8,334 nt of DNA from Actinomycetota bacterium. GTDB lineage: Bacteria; Actinomycetota; Nitriliruptoria; Nitriliruptorales; JAHWKO01. Made by a program: the position numbers and the translations under genes. Under the pieces are notes generated by a model that saw nothing but the letters and a program-made list of their open reading frames with translations, did not search any database and had not been told where the DNA came from. The DNA lies in contig JAHWKO010000094.1 of the NCBI GenBank assembly GCA_019347855.1, forward strand, positions 1 through 8,334, written 5' to 3'. Shown in pieces: positions 1 through 8,334 of this stretch; position 1 is the first letter of the stretch, and the number at the start of each line of letters is the position of its first letter.

Positions 1-865
1 CGACGAACCGCTGGGGGCGGAACCGCGCCACGACGTGCCCGACCGCCAGCGTCACGACGAGCAGCGCCAGCGTCTTGAGGATCATCCAGACCGGACCGGG
101 CAGCCACGGTCCCAGCCAGCCCCCGAGGAACGCCGCCGCCCCCATCGCGCAGAACGCGACGAGCATCGCGGCACGCGACACCTCCCAGACCAGCCGGTGG
201 CTGCCGGACGCCTCGGCCGACGTTCCACCTGCCAGCTCCGAGGCGTCGGGCAGGCGCAGCGGACCCCAGAACGCGACGCCGAGCGTCACCACGATCCACA
301 GCGGGAGCGCCGGCGGGTGGCGGACCGCGTTCCACAGCCCGTCCTGGGCCTCGACGATCGCGGTCATCTGCATCGACCCTGCCGGCAACGCGACCGCGAT
401 CAGCACGAACATCGACAGCAGTTCGTAGGCGATCGCCTGGGCGACGAACCGGTAGCCGCCGATCAGCGGGAACGCCGAGTTCGGCGACCAGCCGTGCAGG
501 TACACGGCCACCATGGCCAGCGCCTCCGCCGCGCCCCACAGCACGATGCCGGCCTGGATGTCGGCCACGACCCAGGTCGGGGACAGGGGCACGACGGTCA
601 CGGCGAGCGCGGCGAGCCCCCCGTACAGGGCGGGTGCCAGCGCCCAGGCCGGGGCGTCGGGTCGTTCGGTGCTGATGCGCTCCTGGATCAGCAGGAGGCT
701 GACCCGCCGGAACGGACGCGCGGCGGCCTCCCCCCAGCGAGGAGCGGCGCTGGCGACGACCCGACCGACCACGAGGTCGAGGACCGCGACCGCGTAGGCG
801 CCGAGCGCGAGTCCGAGGCCGACGGCGACCGGGGCGAGCCAGGCGGGGGCGTGCGCGACCTCCAT
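1..865 (-). CDS. nuoH: NuoH-like subunit of a divergent complex I (partial, 3' end outside the window)
   Basis: The reading frame starts at the ATG at 865, which overlaps the TGA of the upstream fusion gene (TGATG), and stays open for 288 codons to the window edge. It codes for a hydrophobic protein with about seven membrane segments in the visible part (roughly residues 10-33, 74-95, 103-124, 147-165, 187-205, 232-252 and 260-280). NuoH is the membrane subunit of complex I that helps form the quinone chamber and couples it to the proton-pumping arm. Family signatures seen are a GWSPNS...YE stretch (residues 125-148, with the conserved Glu at 148), LPDASELAGG...EASG (205-221), and FLGGW.GP followed by W..LKT (246-265). 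The usual FD.PEAE...EYSG loop is altered: the first acidic positions differ and the Tyr is Ala. Translational coupling to the B/D fusion implies one operon. The family call is firm; membership of an accessory rather than a standard complex I is inferred. Confidence 0.85.
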   Translation of the reverse strand, partial: MEVAHAPAWLAPVAVGLGLALGAYAVAVLDLVVGRVVASAAPRWGEAAARPFRRVSLLLIQERISTERPDAPAWALAPALYGGLAALAVTVVPLSPTWVVADIQAGIVLWGAAEALAMVAVYLHGWSPNSAFPLIGGYRFVAQAIAYELLSMFVLIAVALPAGSMQMTAIVEAQDGLWNAVRHPPALPLWIVVTLGVAFWGPLRLPDASELAGGTSAEASGSHRLVWEVSRAAMLVAFCAMGAAAFLGGWLGPWLPGPVWMILKTLALLVVTLAVGHVVARFRPQRFV

Positions 866-2175
866 CACCGCACTCCCGCCGGTATCCGCGCGTGCTCCAG
901 GTCGAGGTCGAAGCTGATGACCGTGGTCACGGCGTCGCCCCACTCCAGTCCCGGGAGCAGCTCCGAGAGGACGTCGGTCAACGCGTCCGGGCCGAGACCG
1001 ATCCCGAGCGTCCCTCGCGGCGTCTCCGCGACCCCGGTCCGGGCGGTCTCGTCCCCGGCCCGTGCGGCGAGATCGAGGCTGGCCTCGACCTCATCGAGAC
1101 GCAGGAGGAACCTCGCCCACGCATCGCCGCGGTCGCGGGTGACCGGTTCGAAGCCGAGGGACCGGTAGGCGGGATCGTCGCGGCGGGCGTCGACCGCCAG
1201 GCCAGCCGCCCGTGCGACCGGACCCGTTACGCGGCCCTCTAGCTGATCGGGGTTGGTGACACCGACACCCTGCATGGCCCACCGGAGCGTCGGGTTCCGC
1301 TCCCAGCGGCGTCGCAGCTCCTGGAGCACGGGAGCGTCGCCGGGTGTCAGGGACGGCGCGAGCTGCCGGGCCCTGCCCGCATCGAGCCCGTGGTGCTCGA
1401 CGGCGGACGCGGCCCACCGCAGGTGGCTACGAGCGCGTGCGACCTCGAGCTCGGCGACAAGCAGTGGCCGATCCAGCACGAGGCGGAACGGATCCCCGGG
1501 ATCGAGCGGCCCTCCGACGGGATCGACGAACGGTTCGCGGACGTCGAACGGATCGCCGGCGAGCGTCGCCTCCTGCAGCACGTCGCCCTGCAGCACCACG
1601 TCGAGGTGCAGGCCAGCCGGCAGGAACGCCACGAACGGCCCGACCCGTAGCGGCAGCCGGTCCAGCTCCAACCCGTCGCGGTCGGGACCGGTCATGGGCA
1701 TCGGTCGGCCGTAGGGGCGTCCTCCCATCATCCCCATGCCGCCCTGCCCGTGCGGGCCGACCCCCCGCCACCTCGCGGGTGGCTGGTCGGGCAGGATCGT
1801 CGGTTCGCTCGGACGCTGCCCGGTGACCAGCTCCCGGTGGACCCTGCGGAGCACGGTGCTCACGTCCCGGTCGGGGCCGACCACCTCGGCGTCCGGGAAC
1901 GCGGCCCGGACCTCACCGAGGTCCCCGCCGGTCCACCAGACCGTCGCTCGGGGCTGGGGCAGCTGGTCGTGGATCTGGGCGAGCGCACGGATCAACGATC
2001 GTGGCATCCGACCGGCGACGAGCAGGATCGTGGCGTGTCTGGGGGAGTCCACGAGCGTGACCGTCCGGTCCCGACCCAGGTCGGCGACCGCGTCCCTCGC
2101 GCCTCCGCCTAGCGCGACGAAGACCGGCACGGGCGCCCCCGCCGCGAGCCGCGAGAGCAGATCTCTCACTGCCAC
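865..2175 (-). CDS. NuoB-NuoD-like fusion protein without cysteines (divergent complex I module)
   Basis: This protein of 436 residues joins two complex I peripheral-arm domains. Residues about 15-115 resemble NuoB: SPRHATILLVAGR (44-56) and IHDQLPQP (68-75) match the NuoB pattern SPRQADLLIVAG...YDQMPEP. Residues about 165-430 resemble NuoD: VAELEVARARSHLRW (240-254) and a GPVARAAGLAVDAR...DAWARFLLRLDEVEAS stretch (318-366) match NuoD motifs for helix packing. The two are joined by a Gly/Met-rich linker (141-161). The whole protein has no cysteine, so the four ligands of cluster N2 are absent. I cannot find the NuoD GPQHP..HG loop or the quinone-site Tyr region. It should sit on the membrane module beside NuoA and NuoH but cannot carry electrons in the usual way. 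The start used is the GTG at 2175. A second in-frame GTG at 2169 gives a 4-bp GTGA overlap with the nuoA stop and is also plausible. Similar partial second nuo clusters are known in actinobacteria such as Streptomyces. Confidence 0.8.
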   Translation of the reverse strand: MAVRDLLSRLAAGAPVPVFVALGGGARDAVADLGRDRTVTLVDSPRHATILLVAGRMPRSLIRALAQIHDQLPQPRATVWWTGGDLGEVRAAFPDAEVVGPDRDVSTVLRRVHRELVTGQRPSEPTILPDQPPARWRGVGPHGQGGMGMMGGRPYGRPMPMTGPDRDGLELDRLPLRVGPFVAFLPAGLHLDVVLQGDVLQEATLAGDPFDVREPFVDPVGGPLDPGDPFRLVLDRPLLVAELEVARARSHLRWAASAVEHHGLDAGRARQLAPSLTPGDAPVLQELRRRWERNPTLRWAMQGVGVTNPDQLEGRVTGPVARAAGLAVDARRDDPAYRSLGFEPVTRDRGDAWARFLLRLDEVEASLDLAARAGDETARTGVAETPRGTLGIGLGPDALTDVLSELLPGLEWGDAVTTVISFDLDLEHARIPAGVR

Positions 2176-2522
2176 TCGAACGCCCCTTCACGCCAGGCGT
2201 ACACGACACCCAGCGTCAGGATCGCCAGGAACATCCCCATCTCGGCCAGCGCCTTGACCCCCTCCTGGACGTACACGACCGCCCAGGGGTACATGAACAT
2301 CATCTCCATCTCGAAGGCGATGAAGAGCAGGGTGAGCGCGTAGTAGCGGACGTGGAACCGGCTCCACGCGTGGGTCCGGGGGGGATGTCCGCCCAGGAAG
2401 GGGACGGTCTCGGGGTGGGGGAGGCGCCGCGGATCGCCGACGGTCCCGGCCCACCGGACGAACAGCAGGAAGGCCACGGCGACCACGAACACGGTCAGTG
2501 CGGCGCCCAGCGCTTCGAACAT
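2166..2522 (-). CDS. nuoA: NuoA-like subunit of a divergent complex I
   Basis: NuoA is a small three-helix membrane subunit of complex I next to NuoH and the quinone chamber. This one is 118 residues, normal for the family, with membrane segments at about 4-24, 61-82 and 93-111. Strong family signatures are RFHVRYYALTLLFIAFEME (55-73), then FMYPWAV (76-82) and EG...LAEMGMF. The two acidic residues of the FD.E motif are present as Glu71 and Glu73, and the Glu of the third helix is Glu94. The usual acidic/Cys residues of the loop YE(C/S)G before helix 2 are replaced (PFLGG, 41-45). The ATG at 2522 is preceded by GGAGGGG a few bases upstream, a good ribosome binding site. The gene overlaps the next gene of the cluster and is the first gene of the minus-strand operon, divergent from csoR. 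Confidence 0.88.
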   Translation of the reverse strand: MFEALGAALTVFVVAVAFLLFVRWAGTVGDPRRLPHPETVPFLGGHPPRTHAWSRFHVRYYALTLLFIAFEMEMMFMYPWAVVYVQEGVKALAEMGMFLAILTLGVVYAWREGAFEWQ

Positions 2523-2590: not shown

Positions 2591-2619
2591 TTGCGTACCA
2601 TACCCCCCTACCGTATGAT
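2591..2619 (+). promoter_or_regulatory. Promoter of the csoR-copZ-copA operon
   Basis: TTGCGT (2591-2596) and TATGAT (2614-2619) are separated by exactly 17 bases and match the sigma-70/HrdB-type -35 and -10 consensus well. This puts transcription start near 2626, about 40 bases before the csoR GTG at 2668. The AT-containing hexamers stand out from the GC-rich surroundings. The spacer is largely filled by the CsoR-type operator, the expected layout for repression by blocking RNA polymerase. Confidence 0.7.
2596..2617. promoter_or_regulatory. Probable CsoR operator
   Basis: A C-tract is flanked by an inverted repeat: CATAC (2599-2603) and GTATG (2613-2617) with nine bases between. The 20-mer at 2596-2615 (TACCATA, six C, TACCGTA) closely resembles, from memory, the CsoR site upstream of Bacillus subtilis copZA read on the other strand, with about 17 of 20 positions equal. 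It overlaps the promoter spacer and -10 box, so bound apo-CsoR would block transcription and Cu(I) would release it. A further CTACCCC half-site-like string lies at 2624-2630. Function is inferred from position and similarity. Confidence 0.68.
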
Positions 2620-2667: not shown

Positions 2668-2952
2668 GTGCCCCACGGATACACGGACAACAAGGACGAC
2701 TACCGCAAGCGGCTCGCTCGCATCGAGGGCCAGGTCCGCGGCCTGCAACGCATGATCGACGAGGACAAGTACTGCATCGACGTCCTGGTGCAGGTCTCGG
2801 CGGTCACACGCGCCCTGCAGGGTGTCGCCCTGGGACTGTTGGACGAGCACGTCCACCACTGCGTCCGTGAAGCCGTCGAGGGTGAGCCGGACCACGGGCA
2901 TGCCAAGATCGAGGAAGCCATGGCCGCCATCGAGCGGCTCGTCAAGAGCTGA
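2668..2952 (+). CDS. csoR: Copper-sensing transcriptional repressor CsoR
   Basis: CsoR is a small all-helical DNA-binding protein (DUF156 family) that represses copper-export genes and leaves DNA when it binds Cu(I). With the GTG start at 2668 the protein has 94 residues, typical for CsoR. The family core YRKRLARIEGQVRGLQRMI (12-30) is clear. The Cu(I) ligands Cys36 (in KYCIDVL), His61 (in DEHVHHC) and Cys65 are all present, at the same numbers as in Mycobacterium tuberculosis CsoR. This C-H-C pattern separates it from RcnR (nickel/cobalt), FrmR (formaldehyde) and CstR (persulfide) members of the family. The acidic KIEEA motif near 80-84 holds the usual second-shell Glu. It is first in an operon with copZ (20-base gap) and copA, and an operator-like palindrome covers its promoter, so it is likely autoregulated. 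Confidence 0.94.
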   Translation: MPHGYTDNKDDYRKRLARIEGQVRGLQRMIDEDKYCIDVLVQVSAVTRALQGVALGLLDEHVHHCVREAVEGEPDHGHAKIEEAMAAIERLVKS

Positions 2953-2972: not shown

Positions 2973-3182
2973 ATGCCAACCACCCGCACCTACGACGTCC
3001 CGACCATCTCCTGCGGGCACTGCAAGGCGACGATCGAGTCGACGCTCGGCGAGCGCGACGACGTCGAGACCGTCGACGTCGACATCGACTCCCGGACCGT
3101 CCGCGTCACCGGTGATGTCACCGAGGACGACGTCCGGTCGAGCCTCGACGAGGCCGGCTACGAGGTCGCCGGCACCGCCTGA
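2973..3182 (+). CDS. copZ: Copper chaperone CopZ (heavy-metal-associated domain protein)
   Basis: This 69-residue protein is one heavy-metal-associated (HMA) domain with the ferredoxin-like beta-alpha-beta-beta-alpha-beta fold. The metal site is Cys14-Gly-His-Cys17 in the first loop ([12 protein letters not shown]), a CxxC that binds Cu(I). The His between the cysteines is as seen in several bacterial CopZ proteins; the usual Met two residues before the first Cys is Ile here. It should carry Cu(I) in the cytosol and hand it to the HMA domain or membrane entry site of CopA, and may also deliver Cu(I) to CsoR. The protein is rich in Asp and Glu, in keeping with charge-guided docking. GAGAGGA (2961-2967) is the ribosome binding site, five bases before the ATG. 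It lies between csoR and copA. Confidence 0.92.
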
Positions 3183-3208: not shown

Positions 3209-5407
3209 GTGAGCACCACCGACACCCCTCCCGAGCAGCTGAACACCCTCGACTTCGAGGTCGACGGCATGACCTGCGGCAGCTGTGCCGCGAGGGTCCA
3301 ACGCACCCTCGGCAAGCAGGACGGCGTCACCGACGCCGAGGTCAACTTCGCCACCGGCAAGGCCCGCGTGGTCGTGCGACCGGGCGCGGCCTCGCCCGAC
3401 GAGCTGGAGCGGGCCGTCGAGAAGGCCGGCTACCAGCTGCACCCGGCGACGGAGCTGCAGCGCGACGTCCGCGATGCGCAGGATCCCGAGGAGGCCGCGA
3501 AGCGCGGCTGGTTCCGCCGTGTGGCGATCGGCTGGCCGCTGGCGCTCGTGGTCATGTGGCTGGCCATGTTCTCCGGCGACCTGACGATGGAGCCGTGGGC
3601 ACGCTGGACGATGTTCGGGCTGACGACGGTCGTGCAGTTCGGCGTCGGCTGGCCGTTCCTGCGGGAGGCCGCGGTCCGTGCCCGGCACCTCACCGCGAAC
3701 ATGGACACGCTCATCGGGATGGGCACGCTGGCGGCGTACCTGTACTCGACGGTCGCCCTGGTCACGGGGAGCGGGGACCTGTACTTCGAGTCCGCCGCGC
3801 TGATCATCGTGTTCCTCGTGCTGGGGCGGTACTTCGAGGCGCGCGCCAAGAGCCGGGCCGGTCGAGCGATCCGCGCTTTGCTCGGGCTCGGCGCCAAGGA
3901 AGCGACGGTGATCCGCGACGGTGCCGAGGTCACCGTCCCGATCGAGCAGGTCGCCGTGGGTGATCTGCTGCGGGTGCGACCTGGCGAGAAGATCCCCACC
4001 GACGGGGTCGTCGTCGACGGCGCATCCGCCGTGGACGAGTCCATGCTCACCGGGGAATCCGTCCCGGTAGAGAAGACCGAGGGTTCAGCCGTCGCGGGCG
4101 CGACCGTCAACACCAGCGGCGTGCTGACCGTCCAGGCCACCGCGGTGGGTGCGGACACCGCGCTGTCGCAGATCGTCCGGCAGGTCGAGGAAGCCCAGGC
4201 CGGCAAGGCCGAGGTCGAGCGCCTGGCGGACCGGGTCGCGGCCATCTTCGTCCCGAGCGTCATCGGCGTCGCGGGTCTGACGTTCCTCGGCTGGTGGCTG
4301 GTGGGCGGCGACCCGGTCAAGGGACTGATCGCCTCCGTCGCCGTGCTGATCATCGCCTGCCCCTGCGCGCTCGGCCTGGCCACGCCGACCGCGATCATGG
4401 TCGGAACCGGCCGGGGCGCGGACCTGGGCATCCTGATCCGCGGGGTCGAGTCGCTCGAGCGGGTACGCACCATCACCACGGTCGTCTTCGACAAGACCGG
4501 GACCTTGACCCGCGGCGAGATGTCCCTGACCGACGTCGTCGCCGAAGGCGCGACCGAGGGCGAGGTGCTGCGGCTCGCGGCTGCGGTCGAGGACGCCAGC
4601 GAGCACCCGATCGGTCGCGCCGTGGTCGACGCGGGGCGCGAGCGGGGCCTGGATCTGCCTCCCGTCGACGCGTTCGAGGCGGTCGCTGGGCACGGGGTGC
4701 GTGGGGACGCGGAGGGCACGACGGTCTGGGTCGGTAGCCGCAAGCTCGCGGCCGAGGCCGGACTGGTCGTCCCCGAAGCGCTCGAGGACGCCGCGATCCG
4801 CCTCGAGAACGAGGCGAAGACCGCGGTGCTCGCCGGCTGGGACGGCGAGGTGCGCGGTGTCCTGGCCGTCGCCGACACCCTGAAGTCCGACGCGCGGCAG
4901 GTCGTTGAACGGCTGCATGACCTGGGGCTGCGTGTCGCGATGATCACCGGTGACAACGCGCGGACCGCCCAGGCGATCGCGGATCAGGTCGGCATCGACC
5001 GCGTGCTGGCGGAGGTGCTGCCCGCCGAGAAGCGCAGTGAGATCGAGAGGCTGCAGGCCGAGGGCGAGATCGTCGCGATGGTCGGCGACGGGGTGAACGA
5101 CGCCCCAGCCCTGGTCCAGGCGGACCTCGGCATGGCGATCGGCACCGGCACCGACGTCGCGATCGAGTCGAGTGACCTCACGCTGATGCGTGACGAGCTC
5201 GACAGTGTCGTCACGGCGATCGACCTGTCCCGGCGCACCTACCGGACGATCCTGCAGAACCTCGGCTGGGCGTTCGCCTACAACACGCTCGCGATCCCGC
5301 TGGCTGCGGCCGGCCTGCTGAGCCCGGTGATCGCCGGCGCGGCGATGGCCTTCTCCAGCGTCAGCGTCGTCCTCAACTCCCTCCGCCTCCGCCGCTTCGG
5401 CAGCTGA
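3209..5407 (+). CDS. copA: Cu(I)-exporting P-type ATPase CopA (P1B-1)
   Basis: CopA pumps Cu(I) out across the cytoplasmic membrane using ATP. The 732-residue protein starts at the GTG at 3209 with GAGG about seven bases upstream. One N-terminal HMA domain (about 13-80) carries GMTCGSC with Cys23 and Cys26. Eight membrane helices follow the P1B plan: about 105-121, 133-150, 164-187, 191-208, 344-365, 372-392, 683-705 and 706-725. Actuator motif TGES is at 281-284, the phosphorylated Asp428 is in DKTGT (428-432), the nucleotide-domain SEHP is at 464-467, and the hinge GDGVND at 626-631. The transport-site residues are Cys384-Pro-Cys386 in helix 6, Tyr691-Asn692 in helix 7, and Met713 with Ser716-Ser717 (MxxSS) in helix 8. 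This set is the Cu(I)-specific P1B-1 signature and argues against Zn/Cd/Co export. All catalytic residues are present, so the pump should be active. It is the last gene of the csoR operon; the strong hairpin downstream probably ends the transcript. Confidence 0.96.
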
Positions 5408-5424: not shown

Positions 5425-5540
5425 CCTGTGAACCGGGAGCGCCGTATGTGGCGCTCCCGGTTCACAAGCGGGGGTCGGTGCCGCCCGATCGTGGTCCTGT
5501 GAACCGTGGCGGCCGTATGTGGCGCTCCTGGTTCACGAGC
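5425..5540. repeat. Two tandem copies of a 45-bp palindromic element
   Basis: Copy 1 (5425-5469) and copy 2 (5496-5540) start 71 bases apart and agree at 39 of 45 positions by eye. Both begin CCTGTGAACCG, share the central GTATGTGGCGCTCC (positions 20-33 of the unit), and end GGTTCAC.AGC. Copy 1 is a perfect inverted repeat. Copy 2 is a damaged one: its left arm differs in the middle (GTGGCG against GGGAGC), leaving mismatches in the stem, while both ends and the loop are kept. This looks like an intergenic palindromic repeat of the REP/ERIC kind or a double terminator; no coding sequence is seen here. Confidence 0.7.
5427..5466 (+). terminator. Perfect 17-bp hairpin after copA, probable terminator
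   Basis: TGTGAACCGGGAGCGCC (5427-5443) pairs with all 17 bases at 5450-5466 around the loop GTATGT. An outer stem, GACCCCC (5406-5412, inside the copA stop) with GGGGGTC (5470-5476), can enclose it. There is no T-run, which is common for terminators in high-GC actinobacteria. It separates two operons on the same strand. It is also the first copy of the local repeat, so its primary role could be a repeat element instead. Confidence 0.6.
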
Positions 5541-5628
5541 TGGGTGGGGGAGCGCAAGGCCGGGCAGTAACAACGTTTGTATCTACCGATGTTCGTCCCT
5601 CCGGGAGCCGTGCCCCACGGTCTCCAGC
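5541..5628 (+). promoter_or_regulatory. Leader region of the siroheme operon, with a hairpin next to the start codon
   Basis: The region has an AT-richer island (about 5567-5593) with the short inverted repeat ACAA-cgt-TTGT (5570-5580), a place where a promoter or operator would be expected, although I see no convincing -35/-10 pair. Next comes a hairpin: GGAGCCGTG (5604-5612), loop CCC, CACGG, a bulged T (5621), and CTCC (5622-5625), ending three bases before the ATG at 5629. The only purine-rich string, GGGAG (5603-5607), is part of this stem. An alternative stem, TCCC (5596-5599) with GGGA (5603-5606), would exclude the lower part of it. Confidence 0.35.
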
Positions 5629-6237
5629 ATGCGATTCGCCTACCCGGTGTCCCTGGACGTCGCCGACCGCCGCTGCGTGGTGGTCGGGGGCGGCTCGATC
5701 GCGGCCGAGAAGGCCGCCGGGCTCCGCGATGCGGGGGCGGACGTCTTCGAGGTCCCGGCCGACGCGTACGACGCGCACGTGCTGGACGGGGCGTTCCTCG
5801 CGATCCACACCGGCGAGGACGACACCGATCCCGCCGGCTTCTTCGCTGACGCGACGGACCGCGGGGTGCTCGCCAACGTCATGGACGACATCGACCACTG
5901 CGAGTTCGCCTTCCCGTCGATCATCGAGCGGGGCGACCTGAAGCTGGCGATCTCCACCGCGGGGCGGGCTCCCGCCCTGTCCCGGCGTCTGCGCCTCCAC
6001 CTCGAGGAGCAGCTCCCCGAGGCGCTGGGGGACCTGATCGGTGCGGTCGCTGAGGCACGCGAGATCACGACGCCCCGCACGATCGACTGGTCGGAGTGGG
6101 TCACGCGCTGGCGCGATGCCGTCGACGACCTCGACCGGCTCCTGGAGCTCGCCGAGGCCGGACGCACCGACGAGATCCGCGGTCACGTGGTCGCGACCGT
6201 CGTCGGTGAGCAGGTCGACGCACGGAGAGCATCGTAG
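5629..6237 (+). CDS. sirC: Precorrin-2 dehydrogenase / sirohydrochlorin ferrochelatase-type protein (CysG N-terminal/Met8 family)
   Basis: This enzyme oxidises precorrin-2 to sirohydrochlorin with NAD+ and in some members also inserts Fe2+ to make siroheme. The 202-residue protein, near the normal size for stand-alone members, starts at the ATG at 5629, which gives the family N-terminus MRFAYPVSLDV. The NAD-binding Rossmann loop is VVVGGGSIAAEK (17-28). NVMDD (83-87) aligns with CysG NVVDA, placing Asp86 at the catalytic Asp (Asp104 of Salmonella CysG, Asp141 of yeast Met8p). FPSIIERGDLKLAISTAGRAP (95-115) is the next family block, with Thr110 where CysG has Ser128. The acidic, helical C-terminus fits the dimerisation and tail region. 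It overlaps the methyltransferase gene by one base, so the two are translated together. Whether it also has ferrochelatase activity cannot be read from sequence; a separate SirB-type chelatase may exist elsewhere. No good ribosome binding site is visible. Confidence 0.88.
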   Translation: MRFAYPVSLDVADRRCVVVGGGSIAAEKAAGLRDAGADVFEVPADAYDAHVLDGAFLAIHTGEDDTDPAGFFADATDRGVLANVMDDIDHCEFAFPSIIERGDLKLAISTAGRAPALSRRLRLHLEEQLPEALGDLIGAVAEAREITTPRTIDWSEWVTRWRDAVDDLDRLLELAEAGRTDEIRGHVVATVVGEQVDARRAS

Positions 6238-7049
6238 TGACGAACCGTCACTCAGGAGCATCTGGGGCCCTCGGCGGCGCCCCAGCCACCCGCGGCACCG
6301 TCCACCTCGTGGGTGCCGGACCGGGTGATCCGAACCTGTTGACCCTGCGGGGCGCCCGGCTGCTCGAGACGTGCTCGCTCGTCGCGACCGACCGGCTCGC
6401 GTCGGACGAACTGCTCGACCTGGTGCCCAGCCGCGCCGCCCGCCTCGACGTGGGCAAGAAGCCCGGCGGTCGGGGCTGGACCCAGGACGAGATCAACCGG
6501 CTGCTGGTGCAGTCCGCGCTCGGCGGGCAGGCGGTCGTACGCCTCAAAGGGGGCGACCCGTACGTGTTCGGGCGCGGCGGCGAGGAGATCGAGGCGTGCG
6601 TCGAAGCCGGCGTCCCCGTCGAGGTCGTGCCCGGCATCACCTCCGCGATCGGCGCCCCGTCCGCGGCCGGGATCCCCGTGACCCACCGGGGACTGGCCGC
6701 CGGGTTCGCGGTCGTCACCGGGCACGAGGACCCCACCAAGTCCGACAGCCAGGTCGACTGGGCCAACCTCGCGGGGTTCCCCGGCACCGTCGTGATCCTG
6801 ATGGGCGTCGGCGAGCTCGAGCGCATCGCCGAGCGGTTGATCGGCAACGGTCGCGATCCGCGCACCCCAGCCGCGGCCGTGAGATGGGGGACCACCCCCG
6901 ATCAGCAGGTCGTCGAGGCCACCCTCGGCACCCTCCACGAGGCCGTCCGCGCCCGCGGACTGCGTCCCCCCGCGACGATCGTCGTCGGCGACGTCGTCGC
7001 GATGCGCTCCGTCCTGACCTCAACCCCGGCCCTCCTCGGCGCCGCCTGA
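6237..7049 (+). CDS. cobA: Uroporphyrinogen-III C-methyltransferase (SUMT)
   Basis: SUMT adds two methyl groups from S-adenosylmethionine to uroporphyrinogen III, giving precorrin-2, the branch point for siroheme and cobalamin. The 270-residue protein has the complete motif set: VGAGPGDPNLLTLRGA (25-40), VRLKGGDPYVFGRGGEE (101-117), VVPGITSAIGAPSAAGIP (130-147), THRG (149-152), ILMG (187-190) and WGTT (217-220). The catalytic domain spans about 20-260; the first 20 residues are Gly/Ala/Ser-rich and poorly conserved. The GTG start at 6237 shares one base with the TAG of the preceding gene, and GGAGAG (6224-6229) lies seven bases upstream. In enteric bacteria this domain is fused to the dehydrogenase/chelatase as CysG; here the two are separate neighbouring genes. 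Its neighbours indicate that the product is used mainly for siroheme. Confidence 0.94.
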   Translation: MTNRHSGASGALGGAPATRGTVHLVGAGPGDPNLLTLRGARLLETCSLVATDRLASDELLDLVPSRAARLDVGKKPGGRGWTQDEINRLLVQSALGGQAVVRLKGGDPYVFGRGGEEIEACVEAGVPVEVVPGITSAIGAPSAAGIPVTHRGLAAGFAVVTGHEDPTKSDSQVDWANLAGFPGTVVILMGVGELERIAERLIGNGRDPRTPAAAVRWGTTPDQQVVEATLGTLHEAVRARGLRPPATIVVGDVVAMRSVLTSTPALLGAA

Positions 7050-7060
7050 AAGGCACCATC

Positions 7061-8334
7061 GTGAGCACCACCGACGCTGCACGCGCACGCCGCGCCCGCC
7101 GCCGGCGCAAACGCGAGGAACCCACCTGGGACCTCGTGTACAAGCGCAACTCGATCGAGCGGCTGAAGCGCGAGAAGTTCCCGCTCGACATCGTCGAGGA
7201 CCTGCCCGAGATGATCGCCATGGGCTACGAGGCGGTCCCCGAGGAGGACATCGTCCGACTCAACTGGTGGGGCCTGACCCACGACAAGCCCAAGATCGGG
7301 ACCTTCATGGTCCGGATCAAGGTGCCGGGTGGGATGCTGACGCCGGCGCAGTTGCGGGGCGTCGGCGAGATCTCCAAGGAGTGGGGCAACGACTACGGGG
7401 AGCTCACGACGCGCCAGGGGCTGCAGCTGCACTACGTCGAGCTCGGCGAACTGCCGGCGGTCCTGGACGCTGTGCGCGACACCGGCCTCACCACGGTCGG
7501 GGGAGAGGGCGACACCGTCCGCAACGTCACCGGCTGCCCGGTCGCGGGCATCGCGCAGGACGAGCTCTTCGACGTCCGCCCGGTGATCGACCAGGTCGCC
7601 GACTACTTCTACGGCAACCGCGAGTACTCGAACCTGCCCCGCAAGCACAAGTTCACGATCAGCGCGTGCCCCGGACAGTGCAACGGCCCGGAGTTCCACG
7701 ATGTGGCTCTGGTCGGTGTCGTGCAGGACGGCCGCGAGGGCTTCGCGGTCCGCGTCGGCGGGGGGTTCTCCAACACCCCGCGGATCTCCCAGAACCTCGG
7801 GGTGTTCGTGCCCTACGAAGAGGCGATCCCGGTGCTACGCGCGGTCACCGACGCGTGGCAGTCCGATCCGAAGTACCGGATCAGCCGCGCCAAGGCGCGC
7901 ATCAAGTTCATGATGGACGACCACGGTCCGGACGGGGTCCGCAGGCTCACCGAGGAGAAGCTCGGCTACGAGCTCGAGGACCTGCAAGGCGCCCCGTCGC
8001 CCCAGCACTACGACCACTTCGGTGTGAACGCGCAACGGCAGGACGGCTACGTCTTCGCCGGCTACTCGGTCCCGATGGGGTGGATGACCGGTGACCAGAT
8101 GATGGCGGTCGCCGACGCCGTCGAGGCGGTGAGCGACCCGGACGGACCGCCCGCCGACATCCGACTGACCCGTCAGCAGGACTTCATCGTTGGCAACATC
8201 CCTGCGGGACGGATCGGGCAGCTGACCGAACCCCTGCGCAAGATCGGGTTCCCGCTCAACCGCAACAAGGTCTACGGCAACTCGATCGCGTGCACGAGCC
8301 ACAAGTTCTGCAACTACTCGGTCGCCGAGACCAA
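7061..8334 (+). CDS. Ferredoxin-type siroheme sulfite/nitrite reductase (partial, 3' end outside the window)
   Basis: This enzyme uses siroheme and a [4Fe-4S] cluster for a six-electron reduction of sulfite to sulfide or nitrite to ammonia, normally with ferredoxin as donor. The GTG at 7061 follows AAAGG (7049-7053) by seven bases, and 424 full codons lie in the window; the family is usually about 540-580 residues. Visible blocks are LNWWGL (67-72), FMVRIKVPGG (82-91), LTTRQGLQLHYVEL (115-128), NVTGCPVAGI (155-164), NLPRKHKFTISACPGQC (191-207), the second half-repeat RLTRQQDFIVGNIP (368-381), and CTSHKFCNYSVAET (411-424). Cys411-x5-Cys417 is the first half of the C-x5-C...C-x3-C cluster/siroheme ligand set; the second pair is beyond the edge. 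The start of the protein is a basic stretch ([13 protein letters not shown], 8-20). Sulfite and nitrite reductases of this family cannot be told apart from the visible part; next-door siroheme genes fit either, and the downstream genes (for example cysH/cysD/cysN) would decide. Confidence 0.9.
   Translation, partial: MSTTDAARARRARRRRKREEPTWDLVYKRNSIERLKREKFPLDIVEDLPEMIAMGYEAVPEEDIVRLNWWGLTHDKPKIGTFMVRIKVPGGMLTPAQLRGVGEISKEWGNDYGELTTRQGLQLHYVELGELPAVLDAVRDTGLTTVGGEGDTVRNVTGCPVAGIAQDELFDVRPVIDQVADYFYGNREYSNLPRKHKFTISACPGQCNGPEFHDVALVGVVQDGREGFAVRVGGGFSNTPRISQNLGVFVPYEEAIPVLRAVTDAWQSDPKYRISRAKARIKFMMDDHGPDGVRRLTEEKLGYELEDLQGAPSPQHYDHFGVNAQRQDGYVFAGYSVPMGWMTGDQMMAVADAVEAVSDPDGPPADIRLTRQQDFIVGNIPAGRIGQLTEPLRKIGFPLNRNKVYGNSIACTSHKFCNYSVAET

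Follow-up and report, generated by a model that had tools for sequence, protein, structure and literature searches.

A redox-inactive relative of respiratory complex I with a NuoB-NuoD fusion, possibly acting as a proton-driven Cu(I) exporter

Introduction

How electron transfer is coupled to proton pumping in respiratory complex I (NDH-1, Nuo), with the two events up to ~200 Å apart, is a long-standing question. Energy-converting hydrogenase-related (Ehr) complexes are complex I relatives with a large subunit without metal ligands and a small subunit in which the Fe-S ligands are kept. In the RND system CusCBA, CusA has a methionine relay. In Mrp Na+/H+ antiporters, MrpA-C and MrpC, the homologues of NuoJ and NuoK, are near the bound cations, and an essential Mrp Glu corresponds to Tyr59 in complex I (PMC7419157). 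In Marinobacter atlanticus, a NuoADHJKL cassette interrupts a copper operon, expression of all seven cassette genes rises at one electrode potential along with that of copper genes, and it was suggested in 2021 that energy is drawn from copper redox reactions (PMC8233155). The passages on this cassette name a NuoD and report nuoMN as absent, and they leave the fusion, the lost ligands and the Met sites undescribed. Among the titles and abstract openings listed in a literature search, it was the sole publication on point; the word "copper" does not occur in the main text of a complex I census (PMC12361115).

Here, we report a cysteine-free NuoB-NuoD fusion (BD) from an actinobacterial contig and the family of complexes to which it belongs. 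The family resembles complex I in having subunits A, H, J and K with three antiporter subunits (by Pfam) and in the NuoB and NuoD folds; unlike complex I, B and D are fused and shortened, the N2 ligands and the quinone motif are gone, A, J and K are Met-rich, a ferredoxin-type NuoI is absent, and there is no space for C, E, F and G in an annotated plasmid operon. With Ehr it shares the loss of the large-subunit metal ligands, and unlike Ehr it has also lost the Fe-S ligands of the small subunit, with the two subunits fused. CusCBA and the P1B ATPase CopA are similar in presumed task and genomic company, and CusA also in its methionine relay; the family differs from both in being derived from complex I, i.e., in an unrelated architecture. 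The likeness to Mrp lies in a membrane arm without electron input, with homologues of NuoJ and NuoK near the Mrp cation sites (PMC7419157), but L and J are separate here whereas MrpA is a NuoL-NuoJ fusion, NuoA, NuoH and the NuoB-NuoD cap are present, and the sites are Met-rich where those of Mrp are carboxylate/His. The M. atlanticus cassette is similar in copper-operon location and co-expression (PMC8233155), and it is probably a member of the same family because three other Marinobacter loci (L037, L075 and L079) are members.

Results

Layout of the window

The window, i.e., the whole stretch of 8,334 nucleotides analysed here, carries on its minus strand nuoA (2166..2522; Pfam PF00507, E=2e-25), which has a family-specific His/Met form, the BD fusion (865..2175; an intact open reading frame of 436 aa with no Cys), and nuoH (2..865; PF00146, E=8e-43), which is cut by the window end, so that BD sits between nuoA and nuoH. 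Apart from BD, the cut operon holds NuoA and part of NuoH, and its remaining genes are read from relatives. nuoA is divergent from a csoR-copZ-copA set on the plus strand: a csoR-type metal repressor gene (2668..2952; PF02583, E=9e-30) whose reading frame opens at 2560 and whose likely start is the GTG at 2668, a copZ-like HMA protein of 69 aa (2973..3182; PF00403, E=5e-16), and a copper-type P1B ATPase (CopA-like) of 732 aa (3209..5407) identified by Pfam, with an HMA domain and a CPC motif. Between the divergent nuoA and csoR lies ATACCCCCCTACCGTAT (2600..2616, no strand assigned), tentatively a CsoR-operator-like site by what we take to be a resemblance to known CsoR sites. Downstream of copA, positions 5506-8334 hold a sirohaem synthase-type dehydrogenase, a tetrapyrrole methylase and a cut sulfite/nitrite reductase-like open reading frame, the last named from its translation only; these are ordinary assimilatory genes. 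A tRNA scan of the window found none.

Folds kept and redox sites lost in the fusion

A preliminary description of this DNA had proposed an intact, cysteine-free NuoB-NuoD fusion beside nuoA and nuoH, in which the N2 cysteines and the quinone-site His motif of NuoD are missing, and on these points it is borne out. Profile and fold comparison place the NuoB fold in residues 1-130 of BD (NuoB-like domain, residues 1-122, at 1810..2175, minus strand) and the NuoD fold and profile in residues 162-431 (NuoD-like domain, residues 160-431, at 883..1698, minus strand). When aligned with canonical NuoB, BD retains the SPRHA, LLVAG and HDQLP core and lacks every one of the four N2 cysteines. The NuoD part is shortened to ~270 residues versus 390 in canonical NuoD, i.e., ~120 are absent, and the HPxxHG motif aligns to GPFVAFLPAG in the window and to GPFFPxFPPG in the family consensus; the quinone-site Tyr is probably missing as well. 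The zero Cys content of the window BD, taken by itself, is unremarkable, since the BD family has 0.26% Cys; across 63 alignment rows no Cys column is conserved. The loss extends to NuoH, where among 78 family sequences the canonical GPN, which we take to be a quinone-entry signature, has a gap for P in 76 and for N in 77 (with G in 55), and with K62 replaced by Q in 66 and D55 by R in 46. It is well supported that BD has lost the known electron-transfer residues and retained both folds, and with the N2 ligands and the quinone-site motif gone, the usual electron transfer by NuoB/NuoD is impossible, as the preliminary description had held.

Between the two folds lies a Gly/Met linker loop (residues 136-172, WRGVGPHGQGGMGMMGGRPYGRPMPM...DRDGLELD; 1660..1770, minus strand), which is the densest run of invariant residues in a 24-row homologue alignment and has pLDDT <50 at residues 143-150 of the predicted model. 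This conservation was observed before loop patterns were used to scan for loci; loop conservation among the loci themselves is circular because they were found by those patterns. The fusion annotated on two plasmids from Alphaproteobacteria is just 289-302 aa long, yet the GMMGGxPYGRPMAM loop is kept. Two relatives, L106 and L107, are divergent fusions in open reading frames of 610 and 684 aa whose B-D linker is a His-rich run, which in L107 combines a heavy-metal-binding HMBD domain (E=5e-12) with a His/Met-rich stretch that includes MDHGDMEFMSM; the Met pattern is retained in NuoA and NuoJ of both.

Extent of the family and its operon

A homologue search with BD, in which the 7995 candidates with most shared words were scored, returned 956 proteins at E<=1e-3. 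Homologues are mostly ~40-58% identical and come from several phyla; the 120 listed are 422-462 aa long and have an identical precomputed Pfam domain, and the few that are named belong to Egibacteraceae, Nitriliruptorales, soil metagenome, Gemmatimonadales and Chloroflexi. A genome-contig scan with two linker-loop patterns gave 156 relatives, 80 of which were retained as loci, labelled as Chloroflexi, Actinomycetota, Gemmatimonadetes, halophilic Gammaproteobacteria and a few others. The fusion was found in 26 of 121 sampled Halomonadaceae genomes (E<=1e-30), in five of 72,556 plasmid records (E<=1e-10) and in 21 of 296 sampled Actinomycetota genomes, nine with matches below 1e-60 (including G008) and twelve at 1e-30 to 1e-41. 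L106 and L107, the two of these weaker twelve that were opened, fall in the wider family, so the weaker matches need not be ordinary NuoD. In a NuoD-profile search of 30 genomes, 23 carry another full-length NuoD match, and the fusion is the sole match in four halomonads (G016, G022, G028 and G029).

The gene order in relatives is nuoA-BD-H-J-K-L-M-N, which supplies the nuo genes that follow beyond the window end. Subunits A, H, J, K, L, M and N are all present, by Pfam on the genes of L045 and by the annotation of L081, and J and L are separate genes. The preliminary description had also considered electron entry by a NuoI-like protein, and here the relatives speak against it: none of the 70 operons in which both nuoA and nuoN were found has an open reading frame with the ferredoxin-type C..C..C...C pattern between the two, compared with 17 of 20 canonical nuo loci. 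The span from nuoA to nuoN has a median of 8.4 kb in these 70 loci, and in L081 it is filled by eight contiguous genes. Neither the motif scan of the 70 operons nor the L081 annotation showed C, E, F, G or I, the genes of the NADH module and of the Fe-S chain. A separate Cys-bearing NuoB was not found either, as none of the best 25 of 51 NuoB-profile matches in the relatives' loci (E<=10) shows the canonical Cys pattern and all are at the fusion.

Three features of the records themselves should be noted. L010 and L011 are 13,682-base contigs with identical match coordinates and gene list in two MAGs (Acidimicrobiia and Gemmatimonadetes), likely a binning conflict. The label of L057 (Endozoicomonas sp. 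G2_2) may be wrong, as its gene lengths and order are nearly those of the Salinisphaera loci L055, L064 and L080. Record names suggest two operon copies per genome for L049/L067, L038/L047, L022/L042 and L074/L076.

Copper genes near the operon

With lax cut-offs, a copper marker is present in 37 of 80 relatives' loci (10/27 of the GMTGG type, 25/47 of the GMMGG type and 2/6 unclassed by the first pattern), a count that takes in weak generic RND, multicopper and HMA-motif matches, versus none of 20 canonical nuo loci. With strict cut-offs and the duplicate L011 removed, the marker is found in 26 of 79 loci (GMMGG 21/50, GMTGG 5/29); none of the 20 canonical loci passes, one of them having a 21% generic RND match. 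The marker genes were selected partly after the neighbours were known, and over half of the family loci have no copper marker within ~10 kb. A test of linkage within genomes gives a P1B-ATPase <=25 kb from the fusion in 10 of 30 genomes versus 1.29 expected (P=2e-7), and <=25 kb from canonical NuoD in 1 of 23 versus 0.84 expected; at <=10 kb from the fusion the count of 2/30 versus 0.53 expected is not significant (P=0.1). CopB lies <=25 kb from the fusion in 4 of 14 GMMGG-type genomes versus 0.18 expected (P=2e-5), three of them at <=10 kb (P=4e-5), and near canonical NuoD in 0 of 10. Please note that for G006, which has no PF00346 row, this test used the fusion position given in the locus record together with an assumed contig number; G006 scored 0. 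The copper association of the family is strongly supported.

The neighbour families, with one member each assigned by Pfam, include multicopper oxidase, CopB, histidine kinase and response regulator, together with RND pump, CusB, OEP, P1B ATPase, MerR regulator, DUF411, DUF326, DsbD-like and YHS-domain. The three plasmid copies that were opened (Halomonas sp. KO116, Roseivivax marinus and Acuticoccus sp.) have the operon beside annotated copper genes. CueR-like boxes before nuoA were searched for with a regular expression and none was found. A first expression for CsoR-like boxes matched L007 (-206) and L046 (-58); a second, shaped once the window site was known, matched the window and L046, i.e., 2 of 80 upstream regions versus 0.16 expected, a weak result.

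Halomonad neighbours include EgtB/EgtD-type proteins, and in L039, L044, L045, L054, L081 and others the operon is followed by the genes for EgtB and EgtD, which serve in ergothioneine synthesis; a link of a copper-binding thiol to the complex is possible. Transketolase and S-adenosylmethionine synthetase are housekeeping neighbours. A small YHS-domain gene is present in 19 of 29 GMTGG-type loci (among L001-L033), in most cases directly ahead of nuoA or of the fusion, and genes of one cluster occupy the same place in L031, L034, L038, L049, L067 and L071. The L071 member is a DUF326 protein, a family we take to be Cys-rich and copper-storage-like.

Methionine and histidine sites in the membrane subunits

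Near-invariant Met columns, defined as Met in >=90% of the family, number six in NuoA (five with Met in 0/20 canonical sequences), 13 in NuoJ (nine with 0/15) and four in NuoK (three with 0/14). NuoL has three, all Met in canonical NuoL too, and NuoH and NuoN have none. NuoM (e.g., L045:6614-8101) has five that are largely absent from the compared set, so the Met sites are not confined to the single A/J/K path proposed below; for NuoM and NuoN the comparison is unreliable, since canonical sets taken by best profile hit may mix L, M and N. The Met content of A, J and K is 7.9, 8.0 and 9.1% versus 2.4, 3.2 and 5.0% in canonical subunits, and that of H, L, M and N is below canonical, which serves as a control within the same complex against an overall shift in composition.

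In NuoA, H54 and H60 (L045 numbering) are found in 80 of 80 sequences (79 loci plus the window; L033 is without NuoA). The corresponding stretch of the window NuoA, residues 51-97 (2232..2372, minus strand), is conserved as in the family and has H51, H57, M72, M74, M75, M77, M95 and M97; its one departure is L63 at the M66 position (L045 numbering), which is Met in most of the family. The NuoJ sites are mostly in or just after the third helix, and a new Glu in this region is found in 53 of 54 sequences (one X) versus Ala in 15 of 15 canonical; the NuoJ column counts omit 24 of 78 sequences by a length filter whose median was raised by over-extended reading frames. The NuoJ pattern, counted on all 78, matches 73 versus 0 of 15 canonical; what remains are five near-variants or reading frames that are cut or unmatched. 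Among 74 uncut NuoJ copies, 45 carry a tail with 5-20 His in the final 60 aa, and 44 of these belong to the GMMGG type; canonical NuoJ has 0-3 (n=15). The GMTGG type mostly lacks the His tail and has a weaker copper context, with the same NuoA/NuoJ Met core; in actinobacterial and chloroflexi copies, too, these NuoA/NuoJ residues are unchanged. In NuoL, E142, K220, K296, K333 and K387 are kept, in common with canonical NuoL. NuoN-type subunits seem to be without some canonical charges.

Discussion

The lost electron parts, the Met-rich small subunits and the copper-defence neighbours together suggest that the family complex is probably a copper transporter derived from a respiratory machine. 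The preliminary description thus stands in part: the fusion and the lost sites hold, the NuoI-like route is not supported, and the copper genes, the Met sites and the size of the family had been missed. With the redox side lost and the NuoL proton residues kept, the simplest working model is proton-driven export of Cu(I), and we give a probability of roughly 0.55 to the reading that this redox-dead complex I relative is an Mrp-like, proton-driven Cu(I) exporter, where we infer both transport and its direction from sequence patterns. The structural part of the model, i.e., that the electron/quinone end was rebuilt as a Cu(I) entry and that the three antiporter subunits form a proton-driven Cu(I)/H+ exchanger, we hold a little less firmly, at somewhat under even odds.

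In such a complex of NuoA, BD, H, J, K, L, M and N, BD would be the cytoplasmic cap, serving as cytosolic gate and coupler. Cytosolic Cu(I) would be captured at the Gly/Met linker of BD, at the paired His of NuoA, and at the loop and tail of NuoJ; the first loop of NuoA and the NuoJ tail are presumably cytosolic, as we take it from complex I topology and the positive-inside rule applied by eye. The ion might then enter at the former quinone chamber and leave via a Met-lined A/J/K path, where Mrp antiporters have their cation sites and where the NuoJ/NuoK region of the family has Met and the new Glu. Protons flowing inward through the antiporter subunits NuoL, NuoM and NuoN would provide the driving force, and the role may be tolerance of copper, possibly also of silver, alongside CopA/Cus/Cop systems. 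Soft Met/His sites suit Cu(I) or Ag(I); their position in the complex and the topology are as judged from the protein sequences. The direction of transport is not fixed by sequence, and the Met-rich helices could serve in gating or oxidant buffering instead.

Among other readings, the one that deserves most attention, although we consider it unlikely, is a copper-gated antiporter moving Na+/K+ and H+ in an Mrp-like way for pH or salt homeostasis, with the Met/His sites only a switch that responds when copper damages respiration. The halophilic genus names among many hosts, the conserved NuoL proton residues and the many loci without a copper gene nearby are in line with it, but the long Met run through NuoJ and NuoA seems more than a sensor requires, and the actinobacterial and chloroflexi copies have the same NuoA/NuoJ residues. 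Clearly less probable is a redox pump of the kind suggested for Marinobacter atlanticus (PMC8233155), in which electrons pass from Cu(I) to quinone and ions are pumped. The copper context of the family and Met sites that could carry redox-active copper fit this proposal, against which stand the absent N2 ligands, the lost NuoD HPxxHG and NuoH quinone-entry signatures, and the lack of a ferredoxin-type reading frame in all 70 operons.

A copper importer that takes up Cu(I) for cuproenzymes would account for the cytochrome c, DsbD-like and multicopper oxidase genes near some copies; we regard it as slightly more doubtful still than the redox pump, as many identified neighbours (CsoR-CopZ-CopA, CusCBA, CopB, CueR) are for efflux or detoxification. 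The lost cofactor sites could also be those of a decayed complex I, a degenerate duplicate without selected function, or of an assembly artefact. This is very improbable and is in practice refuted by conservation, given the open frames, the strong conservation across phyla, the recurrent operon order, the near-invariant family-specific residues and the presence of the fusion in more than a fifth of the sampled Halomonadaceae genomes.

If proton-driven Cu(I) export is the right reading, the family would be nature's own experiment on the coupling half of complex I, working here with a metal ion where electron transfer used to be, and a new class of metal pump. A complex with NuoB, NuoD, H, A, J, K and antiporter subunits and no known redox site would set the coupling machinery apart from its source of electrons, and experiments on it could use a metal ion as the driver or the cargo; the natural poly-His tail of NuoJ may permit direct purification. 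For copper homeostasis, the family would add a widespread and unnamed type of machine, with copies on plasmids and in 26 of 121 sampled Halomonadaceae genomes.
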